The position numbers and the translations under genes were made by a program. DNA of 61,355 nucleotides from an uncultured Roseburia sp. (GTDB lineage: Bacteria; Bacillota; Clostridia; Lachnospirales; Lachnospiraceae): assembly GCA_947567625.1 (NCBI GenBank), contig CANONN010000017.1:1-61355 (forward strand). The letters are read 5' to 3'. The notes under the pieces are model-generated. The model was given only the letters and a program-made list of their open reading frames with translations. It did no database searches and was not told where the DNA came from. Of the stretch, positions 1-8,321 are shown in pieces (the stretch's first letter is position 1; the number at the start of each line of letters is the position of its first letter).

Positions 1-113
1 AATTGCAGAAGCCGACGCTGGTCATCGCCCACAACAAGACGCTTGCGGCACAGCTATACGGAGAATTCAAGGAGATGTTCCCTGAGAACGCAGTGGAGTA
101 TTTTGTGTCCTAA
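1..113 (+). pseudogene. 5' fragment of uvrB, truncated at a recombination junction
   Basis: Reading from base 3, this stretch encodes about 36 residues matching UvrB residues ~56-91 (just after the Walker A region, through [14 protein letters not shown] to EYFVS), then stops at TAA 111-113. The intact uvrB at 2972 has the same peptide with three differences, yet by hand alignment bases 1-112 match 3132-3243 at only about 73%. This is therefore not a fresh duplication but two long-diverged copies. Its GC-rich codons resemble the host-like body of uvrB. The beginning lies left of the window. Homology ends just after the shared core at 100-112 / 3231-3243. I infer it is the original host 5' part, cut off by the cassette to its right. 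Confidence 0.88.
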
Positions 114-142
114 TTTGGGGACAGGGTGAAAACCGCATTATT

Positions 143-212
143 TAGTGTTATTTGGTGCTGATTGTACCGTATTTTGTGGACAAGATGGGGGATTATGGAC
201 GAAATAACACTA
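143..212. repeat. 11-bp perfect inverted repeat beside the uvrB junction
   Basis: The arm tagtgttattt at 143-153 is the exact reverse complement of aaataacacta at 202-212, with a 48-base spacer. It sits between the broken uvrB end and the nuclease gene, in the 236-base non-coding entry of the cassette (114-349). It could be a recombination site, an operator or chance; nothing else recognisable was seen in this interval. Confidence 0.45.
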
Positions 213-349
213 GGCGGACGGGGGGAGTTTGTGACTTGGATTCGTGTAGTGGACCAGGTAACATAAGATAGTACAAAATAGCAGAGATAATGGTATTAGA
301 GAAGAAATGTGGGAAGCGGAAATCGTAGCAGGCAAGGAGGCGGTCAAAC

Positions 350-1453
350 ATGAATCATGGTCAAAAAACAGAGGTATTAACTAATGAGGATGCAGCTATT
401 GAAAGACTGTGTGTCAAGACAGTTGCTTTAGTAAAGCATGCAAGAAATATAACTGTTCAACAAGTAAATATGATACAATTGCTTACTTACTATGCTATTG
501 GAAAATGGATTGTAGAAGTGCAGCAAAGAGGCGAATCAAGGGCAAGATATGGCAGTCAAGTTATTAAAAGGCTATCAGAAGAAATGAAAAAGAATTTTGA
601 AAGAGGATTCTCGGAGGATAGTTTGAAAAATGCACGGAAGTTTTATATGACTTATAAAGATAGAATTGACGAAACAGTGTTTAATCTTTTTGCTGTTGAA
701 AAAAGCGAAACAGTGTTTAGCCTTTTTGAAGAGAAACCGCCCTTCATAGTATCATGGTCACACTATTTGCAATTAATGCGAATAGAAAATGAAGATGAAA
801 GAAGTTTCTATGAAATTGAATCAGCAAGATCCGGATGGAGCGTCCGCACTCTGCAGAGGCAATATAACTCCAGCTTTTATGAAAGATTAGCGCTTAGCCG
901 GGATAAGGAGGCTGTTTTACAGTTAGCCAAGAAAGGTAACATTATTGCAAAACCAGAAGACATTGTAAAACAGCCAACAGTATTAGAATTTTTAGGAATG
1001 GAAGAAAAGACGAAGTATTCGGAAACAGATTTGGAAACAGCGATTATTAATAAATTGCAGAAATTTTTGCTGGAAATGGGAAAAGGATATCTATTTGAAT
1101 CCAGGCAAAAGCGTTTTACTTTTAACGAAGATAGTTATTATGTGGATTTGGTTTTCTACAATCGCCTTCTTCGCTGTTATGTGCTGATTGACTTGAAGGT
1201 AGATAAATTGACACATCAAGATATCGGACAAATGCAGATGTATGTAAATTATTATGATCGTTATGAGAAATTGGAAGATGAAAATCCGACGATTGGTATC
1301 CTGTTATGTAAAGAGAATAATGACGCACTGGTGGAGATTACACTGCCACAAGATGCTAATATTTATGCTTCTGAGTATAAGCTGTATTTACCGGATAAGA
1401 AATTATTACAAGACAAGTTACGACAGTGGATAGAAGAGGCTGATGTAGAATAG
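350..1453 (+). CDS. DUF1016 / YhcG-family PDDEXK nuclease
   Basis: A 367-residue protein of the DUF1016 (YhcG-like) family. The N-terminal ~190 residues are the helical DUF1016_N type (YAIGKWIVE, RYGSQVIKRLSEEM, FSEDSLKNARKFY). The C-terminal ~190-340 region is a PD-(D/E)XK nuclease fold: VDLVFYN with Asp ~266, IDLK with Asp ~281 and Lys ~283, followed by GQMQMYVNYYD. A good ribosome site (AAGGAGG, 333-339) precedes the ATG. Residues ~108-130 carry a 12-codon near-duplication (ETVFNLF / ETVFSLF). The gene is AT-rich, unlike the genes beyond uvrB, and lies 40 bases upstream of a P-loop ATPase gene, so the two are probably one operon. Family members are often found with restriction-modification or mobile DNA; a defence role here is inference. 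The family call is firm, the substrate unknown. Confidence 0.9.
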   Translation: MNHGQKTEVLTNEDAAIERLCVKTVALVKHARNITVQQVNMIQLLTYYAIGKWIVEVQQRGESRARYGSQVIKRLSEEMKKNFERGFSEDSLKNARKFYMTYKDRIDETVFNLFAVEKSETVFSLFEEKPPFIVSWSHYLQLMRIENEDERSFYEIESARSGWSVRTLQRQYNSSFYERLALSRDKEAVLQLAKKGNIIAKPEDIVKQPTVLEFLGMEEKTKYSETDLETAIINKLQKFLLEMGKGYLFESRQKRFTFNEDSYYVDLVFYNRLLRCYVLIDLKVDKLTHQDIGQMQMYVNYYDRYEKLEDENPTIGILLCKENNDALVEITLPQDANIYASEYKLYLPDKKLLQDKLRQWIEEADVE

Positions 1454-1493
1454 AGTGGTAAAATACTTGTAGGTTTATCATTAAAGAAATGGG

Positions 1494-2951
1494 ATGTTTG
1501 TTATGTACGAAAATAAAAAAGAATTATTATCAAAATTAGAATTTGGAAGTGTGGATTCCGAGTCGGAATTGGATTTAGATAGAAAATTTATTAAAACTAA
1601 AGATTTTGAACAATTTATTAATCCACAGAAATCTTTGGTTTTAGGGGCGAAAGGTTCTGGAAAAAGTGCCCTATTTCAGATGTTTTCTAAGTATGAACAA
1701 GTAGCAAAGAAACTTGCAGGACTTGATAGAAAAATAATTATAGTAACAGGAACGGGCTTCAGTGATTTGAAGGAATTACAAACAGATGATTTTAGAAAGT
1801 TATTAAGGAACGAGGAAGCTGATTTTAATAAAATATGGGAACTTTATATAGCGGTGAAAATAGCAATTAAAATGGGTAAGGAAGGATATTACTGTGGTGA
1901 AAATTTAGTTGAATTTTATAGAAATGTAGGTATTATGGAGGATTTCAGGATTTTAAATATCCTGAAACAATTATGGAGTGTGGTTGTGGGAACTCCAATA
2001 CAAGGTATAGACATTGATATAAAAGGGGTAAAAATTAAAATTGGTGGAAAATATAGTATTGATACACAGGATTTATTGGGTGACATTAATGATGTTTTAG
2101 AGCAGGAATGTTTAGATTGTTGGATTTTATTTGATAAAATTGATGAGTTGTTTTCTGACGATTATGAAAAGAGAAAGATTTGTATAGAAAGCCTTTTTAG
2201 AACGTATTTGAGTTTCGTTAATAGGTTTCCAAGAATAAAATTTAAAATATTTTTAAGGAATGATATCTGGTCTACACTAGAATTTGTGAATAAAAGTCAT
2301 TTGTCGGATAAAAGTGTAGTGCTTTCATGGGATAAAAAAGATTTGCTGATTATGTTAATGCGTCGATGTTTAAATAATGAAATGGTGGAAGAATATGTAG
2401 TAAATGAGATAGGGTTGGAAAAGGAGGAGTTATTATTGGCTCCAAATTTGGAAGAGACTTTTTATACTATATTTGCTCGTCAGGTGTATAAGGGGAAAAA
2501 AGAGGCAAATATGATTGATTGGCTGTTACAACGAATAACAGATGGGCTAGGGGGGAAATATCCGAGAGAATTTATCAATTTTGCTAATTATTCTAAAGAA
2601 GCACAAGAAGAAATAGAAAATTTTGAAGAAAATTGTTTGATTTCTGGCATGGCAGTGAAAAAAGCTTTTTCTAAAGTGTCTGAAGTTAAATGCGATACAT
2701 ATTTGAGTGAATTTCCAAAATTAAGAAAACATTTTGATAGGTTTAAGGGAAAAGATACAGCTCGATATAGTAGAGAAGAAATATTCGTACTTATGGACGG
2801 ATTGGAACCCCAAGGAGATGATATGCTTCAAGAACTTTATGAAACAGGAATGTTAGAAGCAAAAGGGGGTAAAGCGTTTGCAGATAATTTATTTGAAATC
2901 CCTAAATTGTATAGAATGGGTTTGGGCTTAGTTCTAAGAGGAAGACCATAG
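1494..2951 (+). CDS. P-loop ATPase, Sll1717-like, cassette partner of the DUF1016 nuclease
   Basis: A 485-residue AT-rich gene. Walker A is GAKGSGKS at residues 51-58, and a Walker B-like strand with ILFDKIDE covers Asp ~214 to Glu ~218. The start, with a conserved phenylalanine-rich segment before [10 protein letters not shown], and the overall length resemble the Sll1717-type P-loop ATPases found in predicted defence and mobile regions; I give that subfamily only tentatively. No membrane segment or signal peptide is seen. An in-frame ATG at 1503 has better spacing from the purine-rich GGG and may be the true start. The gene ends 20 bases before uvrB, so uvrB is probably read through from this cassette. 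The likely role is the NTP-dependent sensor or switch of a two-gene effector system, by analogy only. Confidence 0.78.
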
Positions 2952-2971
2952 TTATAGAAAGGTATAGTATC

Positions 2972-4954
2972 ATGGATCATTTTGAATTAGTATCACAATA
3001 CGCCCCAACCGGCGACCAGCCCCAGGCCATTGCCGAGCTGGTCAAAGGCTTCAAGGAGGGCAACCAATTCCAGACTTTACTGGGGGTCACGGGTTCCGGC
3101 AAGACCTTTACGATGGCAAATGTCATCCAGCAATTAAATAAACCAACGCTTGTCATAGCGCATAACAAGACATTGGCAGCCCAATTATATGGAGAATTTA
3201 AAGAATTTTTCCCGAATAATGCTGTCGAATATTTTGTCTCCTACTACGACTATTACCAGCCCGAGGCATACGTTCCCCAGTCGGATACCTACATTGCAAA
3301 GGACTCCGCCATCAATGAGGAAATCGACAAGCTTCGCCTTTCGGCGACGGCGGCTCTCGTGGAGCGGAGAGATGTAATTGTGATCGCCTCGGTGTCCTGT
3401 ATCTATGGCCTGGGCAGCCCGGACGATTATCTGGGCATGATGGTATCGCTGCGACCTGGGATGGAAAAGGACAGGGACGAGGTAGTGCGTGCGCTGGTAG
3501 ATATCCAGTATACCCGCAACGATATGGATTTTCACCGCGGTACTTTCCGGGTCAGGGGAGATGTGCTGGAGATATTTCCGGCCAATTATGGAGATACTGC
3601 TATAAGGGTGGAATTTTTTGGAGATGAAATTGACAGAATAACGGAGATTGATGTGCTGACCGGAGAGATACGGTGCAGATTGGAGCACTTTGCCGTTTTT
3701 CCCGCTTCCCACTATGTAGTGCCCCAGGAGAAGATCTTGCAGGCGTGTGAAGAGATTGAGGTGGAATTGGAGGAGCGTGTTCGCTATTTTAAGGGGGAGG
3801 ACAAGCTGATTGAGGCGCAGCGAATCGCAGAGCGCACTAATTTTGATATTGAGATGTTAAAGGAAACCGGTTTTTGTAGCGGTATAGAAAATTATTCCAG
3901 GCATCTGGCGGGTATGCCGGCAGGTGCGACGCCGCATACACTGATGGATTACTTCAAAGACGATTATCTCATTATCGTGGATGAATCCCATATCACGATT
4001 CCGCAGGTGCGCGGTATGTTTGCCGGGGATCAGTCCAGAAAGACAACGCTGGTAGACTACGGATTCCGTCTCCCGTCCGCCAAAGATAACCGTCCCTTGA
4101 ATTTCGAGGAATTTGAGAGCAAAATTGATCAGATGCTGTTCGTTTCCGCGACGCCAAATATCTACGAGAAAGAGCACGAGCTGCTGCGCACGGAGCAAAT
4201 CATTCGGCCTACGGGACTGCTCGACCCGGAAGTTGTTGTCCGCCCTGTGGAGGGGCAGATCGACGATCTGATTGGGGAAGTAAATAAGGAGACCAAAGCG
4301 CATCATAAAGTATTGATTACAACGCTCACAAAGAAAATGGCGGAGGATTTGACCGATTATATGCAGGAGCTGGGCGTGCGGGTCAAATACCTGCACTCTG
4401 ATATAGATACGTTGGAGCGAGCGGAGATTATCCGTGATTTGCGCCTGGATGTGTTTGATGTGCTGGTTGGTATTAACTTATTGCGCGAGGGATTGGATAT
4501 CCCGGAGATCACGCTTGTGGCGATACTCGACGCAGACAAAGAGGGATTTCTCCGTTCCGAGACATCATTGATTCAGACGATCGGCAGGGCTGCGCGCAAC
4601 AGTGAGGGCCATGTAATCATGTATGCGGATAAGATCACAGATTCCATGCAGATTGCCATTGAGGAGACCAACCGCCGCCGCAGAATACAGCAGGAATACA
4701 ATGAAGCGCACGGGATTACGCCGACTACGATACAAAAATCAGTGCGCGAATTAATTTCGATCTCCAAGAAGGTCGCAAAAGAGGAATTGAATTTCAAGAA
4801 ATCACCGGAGTCCATGAATAAAAATGAGTTGGAAAAACTGATTGCAGATATACAAAAGAAGATGCAGAAAGCGGCTGCGGATCTCAATTTTGAGGCGGCT
4901 GCGGAGTATCGAGATAAGATGATAGAATTGAAAAATATGCTGCGGGAGATGTGA
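2972..4954 (+). CDS. uvrB: UvrB, excinuclease ABC subunit B (5' part replaced)
   Basis: UvrB is the damage-verification helicase of nucleotide excision repair, working with UvrA and UvrC. The 660-residue length is normal. Visible motifs are Walker A GVTGSGKT (38-45), the beta-hairpin [10 protein letters not shown] (~91-100) that clamps DNA, DESH (~337-340), SATPN, the helicase C-terminal block with [13 protein letters not shown] and QTIGRAARN, and the C-terminal UVR domain (~620-655). The ribosome site is GAAAGG at 2957-2962. The protein is intact, but the first ~272 bases derive from a second copy: bases 3116-3243 are AT-rich and only ~73% identical to the truncated copy at 1-112, while ~3000-3115 is GC-rich. 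Only 20 bases separate it from the ATPase gene, with no promoter visible in the gap. Confidence 0.98.
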
Positions 4955-5489: not shown

Positions 5490-8321
5490 ATGGAACGTAA
5501 GTACATTAAAATCAGAGGGGCCAGCGAGCACAATTTAAAAAATATTGATGTCGATATACCAAGGGATTCCTTTGTAGTTTTGACCGGTCTGTCGGGTTCG
5601 GGTAAATCGTCACTGGCATTTGACACCATATATGCGGAAGGGCAGCGGCGTTACATGGAATCGCTGTCTTCCTATGCGAGACAGTTTTTGGGACAGATGG
5701 AAAAGCCGCGCGTGGAAAAAATAGAGGGCCTTTCCCCGGCAATCTCGATCGATCAAAAATCAACGAACCGCAATCCGCGCTCTACGGTGGGAACCGTGAC
5801 GGAGATCTATGATTATTTTCGTCTGCTGTATGCCAGAATCGGTGTGCCGCATTGCCCCAAATGCGGGAAAGAGATCAAAAAACAGACGGTTGATCAGATG
5901 GTGGATCAGATTATGGAACTGCCGGAGCGCACCAGAATACAATTGCTTGCACCCGTAGTGCGTGGGCGCAAGGGAGAGCATGTGAAGCTTTTTGAACAGG
6001 CAAAGAAGAGCGGGTTTGTGCGAGTCATTGTCGATGGCAATATGTACGAGCTTGGCGAGGAGATCAAGCTGGAGAAAAACAAAAAGCACAACATTGAGAT
6101 TGTGGTGGACCGTCTGGCGATCAAGCCTGGTATAGAACGGCGTCTGGGAGACTCCATCGAGACCGTGCTTGAGATGGCCGAGGGGCTTTTGATTGTGGAC
6201 GTGGTGGACGGAGAGCAGATTCAGTTTTCGGACAGTTTTTCCTGCCCGGACTGTGGAATCAGTGTCGGTGCAATCGAGCCGCGCAGCTTTTCCTTTAACA
6301 ATCCGTTTGGCGCCTGCCCGACCTGTTTTGGATTGGGATATAAGATGGAGTTCGATGAAGACCTGATGATTCCCGATAAGAGTTTAAGTATTGCGGACGG
6401 TGCGATTCAGGTTATGGGATGGCAGTCCTGTATGGATTCGTCGAGTTTTACCAACGCGATTTTGCAGGCGCTTTCGCGGGAATATCAGTTTTCGCTCGAC
6501 ACCCCGTTTGCGGAATATCCAAAAGAAATACGAGATCTGATCCTCTACGGTACAGACGGGAGAGAGGTCAAGGTACATTATCAGGGACAGCGTGGCTCCG
6601 GCGTTTATGATGTGGCGTTTGAGGGATTGATTAAGAATGTGCAGCGCCGGTACCGTGAGACCGGCTCGGATGTCATGAAACAGGAGTATGAGCAGTTTAT
6701 GCGGATTACGCCGTGCGAGACCTGCAAGGGAAGGCGTCTGAAGAAAGAATCCCTCGCAGTGACGGTGGCGGACAAAAATATTTATGATATGACGTCGATG
6801 TCCGTCAAAAATCTCAATGAATTTATCACAGGGCTGGAGTTAAGTCATCATCAGCAGTTGATCGGGGGCCAGATTTTAAAGGAAATCCGTGCGCGTGTGG
6901 GATTTTTAAATAAAGTCGGCCTGGAATATTTGTCCCTTTCGCGCGCGACGGGCACACTTTCCGGCGGCGAAGCGCAGCGCATCCGGCTGGCAACCCAGAT
7001 CGGGTCCGGGCTGGTGGGAGTCGCCTATATTTTGGATGAGCCTTCGATAGGGCTGCACCAGCGGGATAACGATAAGCTGCTGTCGGCCTTGAAAAATCTG
7101 AAGGAGCTGGGCAATACCCTGATTGTGGTGGAACATGACGAGGATACGATGCTCGCGGCAGATTATATTGTGGATGTGGGGCCGGGGGCCGGCTCTCACG
7201 GCGGAAAGATCGTGGCCTGCGGAACCGCGGAGGAGATTATGAAATGCCAGGATTCCATAACCGGGGCCTATCTGGCAGGACGGATTCAGATCCCGGTTCC
7301 CGCGGTGCGCAGAACGCCCACTGGTTTTCTGACGATAAAAGGGGCGAGAGAGAATAATCTCAAGAATATCGACGTACAAATACCGCTCGGCGTTATGACT
7401 TGTATTACCGGTGTTTCGGGTTCCGGCAAAAGCTCCCTGACGAATGAAATCTTGTACAAGCATTTGGCCCGAAAGCTAAACAGGGCGCGCTGTATACCGG
7501 GTGTGCACGACGCGATCGCCGGTGTGGAGCAGCTTGACAAAGTGATCGATATTGATCAGTCTCCGATCGGTAGAACGCCGCGCTCGAATCCGGCGACGTA
7601 TACCGGCGTATTTGATATGATAAGGGACTTGTTTGCCGCAACGTCGGACGCCAAGGCAAAGGGGTACAAAAAAGGCAGATTCAGTTTTAATGTAAAAGGC
7701 GGGCGATGCGAGGCGTGTTCCGGCGACGGCATCATCAAGATAGAGATGCACTTTTTACCGGATGTCTATGTGCCCTGCGAGGTGTGCCAGGGAAAACGTT
7801 ATAATCGCGAGACCTTGGAAGTAAAATATAAGGGGAAGAGCATCTACGACGTGTTGGATATGACGGTCGAGGAAGCGTTGAAATTTTTTGAGAATGTGCC
7901 TACGATTCACCGCAAGATTCAAACGCTCTACGATGTCGGATTATCCTATGTAAAGCTGGGACAGCCGTCGACCGAACTGTCGGGGGGCGAGGCGCAGCGC
8001 ATAAAACTGGCGACGGAGCTGAGCAAACGCAGTACCGGCAAGACGATTTATATTTTGGATGAGCCGACGACGGGACTGCATTTTGCGGATGTGCATAAGC
8101 TGATTGATATTTTGCATCGGCTGTCGGACGGCGGTAATACGGTGGTCGTGATTGAGCATAATCTGGATGTCATCAAGACAGCAGATTATATTATCGACAT
8201 GGGCCCCGAGGGCGGAGACGGCGGCGGTACGGTGATTGCAAGCGGTACGCCGGAGGAGATTGTGAAAGTCAAAAAGTCATATACGGGCCAATTCCTGAAA
8301 AGATACTTAAAGAAAAAATGA
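5490..8321 (+). CDS. uvrA: UvrA, excinuclease ABC subunit A
   Basis: UvrA is the damage-recognition ATPase that loads UvrB on DNA. The 943 residues show the family plan: first Walker [10 protein letters not shown] (~32-40), the zinc site [10 protein letters not shown], a second CPDCG...CPTCFG zinc module near residue 250, first ABC signature [12 protein letters not shown], second Walker [10 protein letters not shown], a zinc finger with CEACSGDG and CEVCQGK, second signature [12 protein letters not shown] and Walker [11 protein letters not shown]. Ribosome site GGAAAGGAG lies just before the ATG. It follows uvrB at 535 bases, a common pairing, and ends at a strong terminator (8333-8379). Confidence 0.99.

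Follow-up and report, generated by a model that had tools for sequence, protein, structure and literature searches.

A split uvrB gene in a Roseburia contig

The window analysed here is the complete contig CANONN010000017.1 (C17; 61,355 bp) from the genome assembly of an uncultured Roseburia sp. (GCA_947567625.1; 3.42 Mb in 110 contigs, 93% complete). As listed in Table 1, a fragment of the 5′ end of uvrB, two cargo genes, and an intact uvrB gene follow one another at the left end of the window. A preliminary description, made from the letters alone, had proposed that a cassette with a nuclease gene and an ATPase gene has split uvrB and rebuilt it with a second 5′ end. It was found that the split is real, since the same layout occurs in single-contig genomes and recurs in the genus, and that the cargo genes encode a DUF1016/YhcG nuclease and a Sll1717-family P-loop ATPase. 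The left fragment matches the intact uvrB at 33 of 36 residues and at 73.5% of the bases over codons 57 to 90 (estimated before as about 73%). Both copies run into a common core, TATTTTGTSTCCTA, after which they diverge. The residue match, the stop codon, and the common end point stand as first described, while the fragment covers residues 55 to 90 rather than about 56 to 91, and the core is one base longer than had been given. The left fragment is read as what remains of the uvrB 5′ end that occupied this place before the insertion.

Base 1 of the window is the first base of the contig, and the left fragment is thus cut by the contig end. A search for its codons 1 to 54 elsewhere in the source genome gave no match. 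The fragment is closest to an element-type uvrB 5′ end in another genome (G046; 95.1% of 102 bases), and may itself derive from an earlier element. The earlier suggestion that it is the edge of a larger array is plausible in view of this similarity and of the arrays of two or three elements found in relatives. Both cores are kept, as the putative attL and attR, and the two cargo genes between them include no recombinase or transfer gene. This corresponds to a cis-mobilizable element (CIME), described in parts of PMC5704250 as an element that lacks a recombinase and keeps attL and attR.

Table 1. Positions of the uvrB cassette features and of the downstream neighbour in the window
Feature	Position	Strand	Remark
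Left uvrB fragment, codons 55-90 then TAA (111-113)	1..113	+	Read from base 3; contig start cuts the fragment
Left copy of the recombination core, TATTTTGTGTCCTA	99..112	+	Sequence reading
Element left end (140 bases compared)	113..252	+	Shared ATTCG motif near the inner edge; similar to most other left ends compared
Cargo gene 1: DUF1016_N + YhcG_C PDDEXK nuclease, 367 aa	350..1453	+	PADLOC candidate PDC-S02
Cargo gene 2: P-loop ATPase, Sll1717 family, 485 aa	1494..2951	+	NF047389; partial match to PADLOC PDC-M28C
20-bp gap from ATPase stop to uvrB ATG	2952..2971	+	Sequence reading
Replacement uvrB 5′ end, codons 1-90 plus core; P-loop GVTGSGKT inside	2972..3243	+	Element origin inferred from relatives
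Right copy of the recombination core, TATTTTGTCTCCTA	3230..3243	+	Sequence reading
Intact uvrB, 660 aa	2972..4954	+	Reading frame whole
uvrA, native downstream neighbour (context)	5490..8321	+	Annotation

The uvrB front end in related elements

The sequences of Coprococcus catus and Eubacterium ramulus were found to agree at every one of the 11,732 bp compared upstream of uvrB, and also at each of the first 275 bases of the gene itself. The first mismatch lies at base 276, and from base 277 on 454 of 1704 positions differ. This identity up to base 275, followed by divergence, shows that in these relatives the element carries a replacement uvrB 5′ end. Three pairs among three further genomes (L110, L111, and L112) are 98.7-99.6% identical next to uvrB and close over codons 1 to 90, and then drop; farther upstream, the L111/L112 pair also has matching blocks that are shifted. 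The relatives thus bear out the preliminary proposal of an element that hits a fixed uvrB site and brings a diverged front end. By analogy with them, the replacement 5′ end in the window would also be element-borne.

On a single contig of C. catus, the element is bounded by a uvrB fragment and by the intact gene, whose starts are 128,196 bp apart. The stretch has 91 open reading frames with 150 residues or more, and ten proteins of the element were scanned. Among these ten were a TraG/VirB4-type P-loop protein, a VirD4/TraG coupling protein, an SLT/peptidase protein, and PcfJ; three had no match, and no relaxase was identified among the ten. At its right end lies a tandem pair of recombinase genes, for which INTA and INTB are used as working labels. 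An integrase together with conjugation machinery, as in an integrative and conjugative element (ICE), is thus found in the C. catus relative and not in the window. The left end of this element is present in E. ramulus at 98.9% identity over 5.3 kb, and its right part, uvrB included, at 99.7% over 19.9 kb.

Tandem recombinases next to uvrB

Upstream of uvrB, G038 encodes two tyrosine recombinases in tandem, with lengths of 405 and 435 residues. INTB has an Arm, a SAM-like, and a catalytic domain, and its residues R220, H344, R347, H370, and Y380 are invariant across five aligned sequences. The catalytic domain has a weak sequence match (E 2e-05 to 5e-05) to the solved structures 6emy, 6emz, and 6en0, which I take to be Int of Tn1549; INTB differs from that Int in having a tandem partner and in sitting at one target gene.

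INTB relatives (E <= 1e-30) were found in 4 of 63 genomes of the genus, always directly upstream of uvrB, and three of the four are truncated (G033, G027, and G005). In a scan of named genomes, all 13 INTB loci, that of G038 included, are followed on the same strand by a uvrB 5′ end about 280-520 bp past the match. The hosts include C. catus, E. ramulus, and Acetatifactor muris, and at three of the loci (L115, L118, and L120) the downstream uvrB is a fragment, not the whole gene. A five-sequence profile (E <= 1e-60) matched 7 of 392 genomes of the order; six of these loci adjoin uvrB, and the seventh breaks off 271 bp past the gene, presumably at a contig end. The genus, named, and order collections may overlap, and the counts were not summed.

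In G038, the uvrB element (L078 and L093) has a D5-like helicase/primase gene and occupies its contig from base 1 up to uvrB, which lies at about 22 kb; the contig contains no left end of the element. At right ends such as those of L034 and L111, a conserved leader is located some 60-160 bp ahead of uvrB. It contains the repeat ATTCGTC ... GACGAAT ... GACGAAC, the first half of which also closes the element left end. The repeat is a possible recombinase-binding or regulatory site.

Recurrence and empty sites

The first 117 residues of UvrB were used as the query against the 63 genus genomes, 58 of which gave matches. An extra uvrB 5′ fragment ending at codons 90 to 95 was found in 11 of the 63; this count leaves out a diverged piece in G004 and one in G002 that a contig end truncates at codon 88. 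No such fragment was present among the matches listed for 38 genomes of other families of the order. In the phage collection, the UvrB N-terminus matched 29 records. Six genus genomes, the window's included, have the fragment and the intact uvrB on the same contig, 1 to 13 kb apart and with cargo in between. In five of the six (G000, G033, G055, G057, and G060), the distance is only 1-4 kb, and full recombinase genes are absent. The extra fragment also occurs in a 3.1-Mb contig of G055 and in the single-contig genomes G490 and G499.

Is the site empty in other genomes? The preliminary description had named an arrangement without any empty site as evidence against it. Empty sites were found in 11 genomes, in which a secA, fprA, or PrfB-like gene ends within about 400 bp of uvrB (for G003, at 404 bp from the match end; the PrfB-like label was given by eye). 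Of 54 genus genomes, 14 have a contig end between -400 and +276 relative to the uvrB start, compared with 2 of 57 at uvrA (p = 0.0009; the interval was picked after the data had been seen). This excess is compatible with insertions that are mixed or repeated in the populations sampled, and is no proof of them.

The diverged piece in G004 (L050, 7129-7269, minus strand) covers codons 50 to 96 at about 62% identity; it does not end at the core and sits on a different contig from the uvrB gene of that genome. In G035, about 18 kb lie between fprA and uvrB. They contain a distantly related tyrosine recombinase gene on the opposite strand (L096, 6411-7736, oriented with uvrB) and, as judged by eye, a relaxase-like gene; this stretch yielded no uvrB fragment.

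Arrays of uvrB fragments

In addition to an intact uvrB, E. ramulus and 1XD42-76 contain two uvrB fragments each, while C. catus, A. muris, G109, and G101 contain a single one. In four of these (E. ramulus, 1XD42-76, G109, and A. muris), the fragments come after full or truncated recombinase genes, as is expected where one element enters a uvrB gene rebuilt by another. No recombinase gene was seen before the fragments in C. catus and G101. In G029, two fragments flank a cassette with an AAA_15 ATPase gene, and type I restriction genes lie to the left. G499 has two fragments that enclose a RhuM-like gene and a partial YhcG-like gene.

The two G499 loci (L153 and L154) are far apart. The uvrB gene with the recombinase pair is at 1.457 Mb on the plus strand, and the stubs with the element left end are at 5.450 Mb on the minus strand, nearly symmetric about position 0 of the 6.93-Mb chromosome. 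This layout points to a large inversion, with the element containing one of its breakpoints.

Left ends and cargo genes

The element left end of the window is identical at 137 of 140 positions to one in another genus (G111) and at 131 of 140 to one in G023. When 21 other left ends were compared with it, 14, including these two, scored above all 300 shuffles; one unusable row was dropped, and some elements are represented by two rows because they were reached from two loci. The shared left end is followed in G111 and G023 by an RNase H/RnlA-like gene, not YhcG. Thus, the cargo varies behind one type of end.

The cargo found directly upstream of uvrB or between fragments includes YhcG, RhuM, KilA-N, nSTAND3/Mrr-like, and type I and type III restriction genes, as well as genes for AAA_15 ATPase, PIN, and MazEF-type proteins; the G055 insert has a chemoreceptor gene instead. 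Several of the cargo proteins match PADLOC candidates, while the RnlA-like and MazF-type proteins do not. Besides the matches in Table 1, the window ATPase matched DS41_1 far below the cut-off, and a search of solved structures with this protein gave no match. The YhcG and ATPase genes of the window are candidate phage-defence genes on this basis. An ATPase relative (73%) was found in only 1 of 396 other genomes of the family sampled, namely the single-contig G490 of another genus, where the order is fragment, RhuM, ATPase, and uvrB. Within the genus, a window-type ATPase gene lies upstream of uvrB in G006 (71%) and, as a broken copy, in G020.

In G055 (L033, 7098-7397) and G056 (L043, 4773-5000; both oriented with uvrB), the insert opens with about 150 bp of an element left end, followed by a C-terminal part of secA. 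In G055, a methyl-accepting chemotaxis protein (MCP) gene comes after it, as if a secA-MCP-uvrB stretch of a donor had been captured by an element.

Upstream control of uvrB

The sequence GAACNNNNGTTC, which I take to be the Gram-positive SOS box, was searched for with up to one mismatch; by hand count, chance would give such a box in about one in eight stretches of 330 bp. All 11 empty-site genomes have it no more than 330 bp from uvrB, and so do 12 of 13 right ends of recombinase-bearing elements (11 exact). No box was found in window bases 1-3100, nor in any of eight genomes, picked by eye, with a cargo gene directly upstream (G000, G006, G007, G020, G045, G046, G059, and G060). Since the gap between the ATPase gene and uvrB is only 20 bp, the window uvrB is probably read together with the cargo instead of from its usual SOS-type promoter.

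Origin of the window cassette

The cassette in the window very probably belongs to a family of integrative elements that target uvrB, as a small, CIME-like member without a recombinase, with the following origin and rebuilding scheme. Full elements would encode INTA and INTB in tandem beside the right end, and these recombinases would most likely recombine the circular element with uvrB at codons 90 to 92, the end point seen in the sequences. The element would bring its own upstream region and uvrB codons 1 to 90. Integration would split uvrB, rebuild the gene with the front end of the element, and leave the old front end as a stub, as the sequence comparisons show for the relatives. A later element would re-use the rebuilt uvrB, and stubs and cargo would accumulate upstream, as in the arrays of relatives. 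The window would retain only the left end, the YhcG nuclease gene, the ATPase gene, and the replacement 5′ end. The absence of a visible recombinase, as first described, is true of the window cassette but not of the family, and the cassette may still be movable in trans with recombinases from another element.

Several observations weigh against this scheme or parts of it. The left flank of the left fragment lies off the contig. Among the 21 left ends compared, one was weakly similar (7 of 300 shuffles reached its score) and six had no similarity. In a distance-matrix (Mantel) breakpoint test at the core with 45 genus genomes, the correlation across the core was 0.28; it was only 0.21 within the 5′ end itself and 0.54-0.56 within the 3′ part, and the outcome was ambiguous because the 5′ end is noisy within itself, so that the test was not counted as support. 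No INTB relative was found at E 1e-30 in the source genome, and present mobility of the window cassette is therefore unsupported. In viral contigs, INTB gave no match and no excised circle, and three left-end patterns gave no match, excised circle, or attP. In plasmid and phage collections, all INTB matches were below 60% (25-29% identical among the 16 matches listed) and were distant integrases only. The SOS box is kept in G050, with a HipA-type gene upstream, and in G034, with a weak PIN match, neither of which has a known uvrB fragment. Among eight fragment-bearing genomes with 330 bp before the intact uvrB, four lack the box (G000, G006, G057, and G060) and four keep it (G005, G027, G033, and G055). 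The box is thus missing with some cassettes, that of the window included, and its loss does not follow from insertion as such.

Is the cassette still mobile? It may instead be a dead remnant, that is, an ICE or an integrative and mobilizable element (IME) which has decayed, lost its recombinases, and left a fixed two-gene operon upstream of uvrB. This alternative shares the proposed origin and differs on present mobility only, and I would give it slightly less than an even chance. It agrees with the lack of an INTB relative in the source genome, with the position of uvrB 20 bp behind the cargo, and with the truncated INTB copies in G033, G027, and G005, which indicate that decay occurs, whereas the near-identical left end beside different cargo in another genus and the occurrence of this kind of cassette in another genus speak against it. 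Such cassettes thus spread, possibly before the recombinases were lost.

The origin by a site-specific element also has to be weighed against two other explanations. Ordinary homologous recombination or gene conversion between uvrB alleles would account for both copies being uvrB, and the C-terminal secA piece inside the G055 insert indicates that chromosomal flanks can travel along. Such exchange alone was rejected as highly improbable, because one end point is shared by many genomes, a recombinase pair adjoins uvrB, and two genera share 11.7 kb of identical DNA together with a uvrB identical to base 275. It is just as hard to believe that the left fragment is an assembly artefact, a chimeric contig end from another organism, which the preliminary description had itself considered. 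The fragment does start at base 1 of a draft-genome contig, and contig ends do cluster at the uvrB 5′ end (14/54 versus 2/57 at uvrA), but the same layout is found in the single contigs of G490 and G499, in the 3.1-Mb contig of G055, and in named isolates, and the left end recurs in another genus (137/140); this explanation was rejected as well.

Beyond the proposed origin of the window cassette, a wider picture is offered tentatively and is more likely to fail than to hold. In it, Lachnospiraceae and relatives would accumulate defence cassettes serially at uvrB, a landing site with no set limit. Small cassettes that consist only of a left end, cargo, and a uvrB front end would be mobilized in trans by INTA and INTB from ICEs that are resident or newly arriving. 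Some cargo-only cassettes would uncouple uvrB from SOS control and hook it to a defence operon, so that damage to the cassette would cost the cell excision repair.

Comparison with known elements and significance

The supply of a new N-terminus to the target gene is already known. According to parts of PMC8409611, dusA-targeting integrative elements (e.g., IMEVchUSA3) and SXT in prfC do so. Like these, the uvrB element is inserted at a fixed site within a conserved gene and supplies a new 5′ end. It differs from the dusA elements in its target and in the length replaced, about 90 codons including the P-loop as against the 35 residues compared for dusA in those parts. The uvrB family also differs from the dusA and prfC elements in its two tandem recombinases, in its hosts (Lachnospiraceae and relatives), and in its serial use, which builds arrays of stubs and cargo. 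Tandem accretion, in which later ICEs or IMEs enter the att site holding the target gene, is described in parts of PMC5704250. In contrast to CIMEs and to accretion of this kind, the uvrB junctions are 5′ pieces of a gene, and every step would leave a stub and rebuild the gene.

More than one tyrosine recombinase in a row is also described for strand-biased circularizing elements (SE), GInt, and Tn554 in parts of PMC10214605. The uvrB elements resemble them in their tandem tyrosine recombinases and differ in holding part of the target gene and in having a large relative with conjugation genes; no search for Tfp- or Srap-type partners was made. In the open-access full-text literature, no paper naming uvrB as an integration site was found. 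The uvrB site, the arrays, and the defence cargo appear to be new.

These results point to a predictable place beside uvrB at which mobile elements and candidate defence genes may be sought in a major family of gut and rumen bacteria. Each insertion would swap about 90 codons of a DNA-repair helicase, including the P-loop. If it is true that uvrB loses SOS control in cargo-only cassettes, a mobile element would rewire a core stress response of its host.

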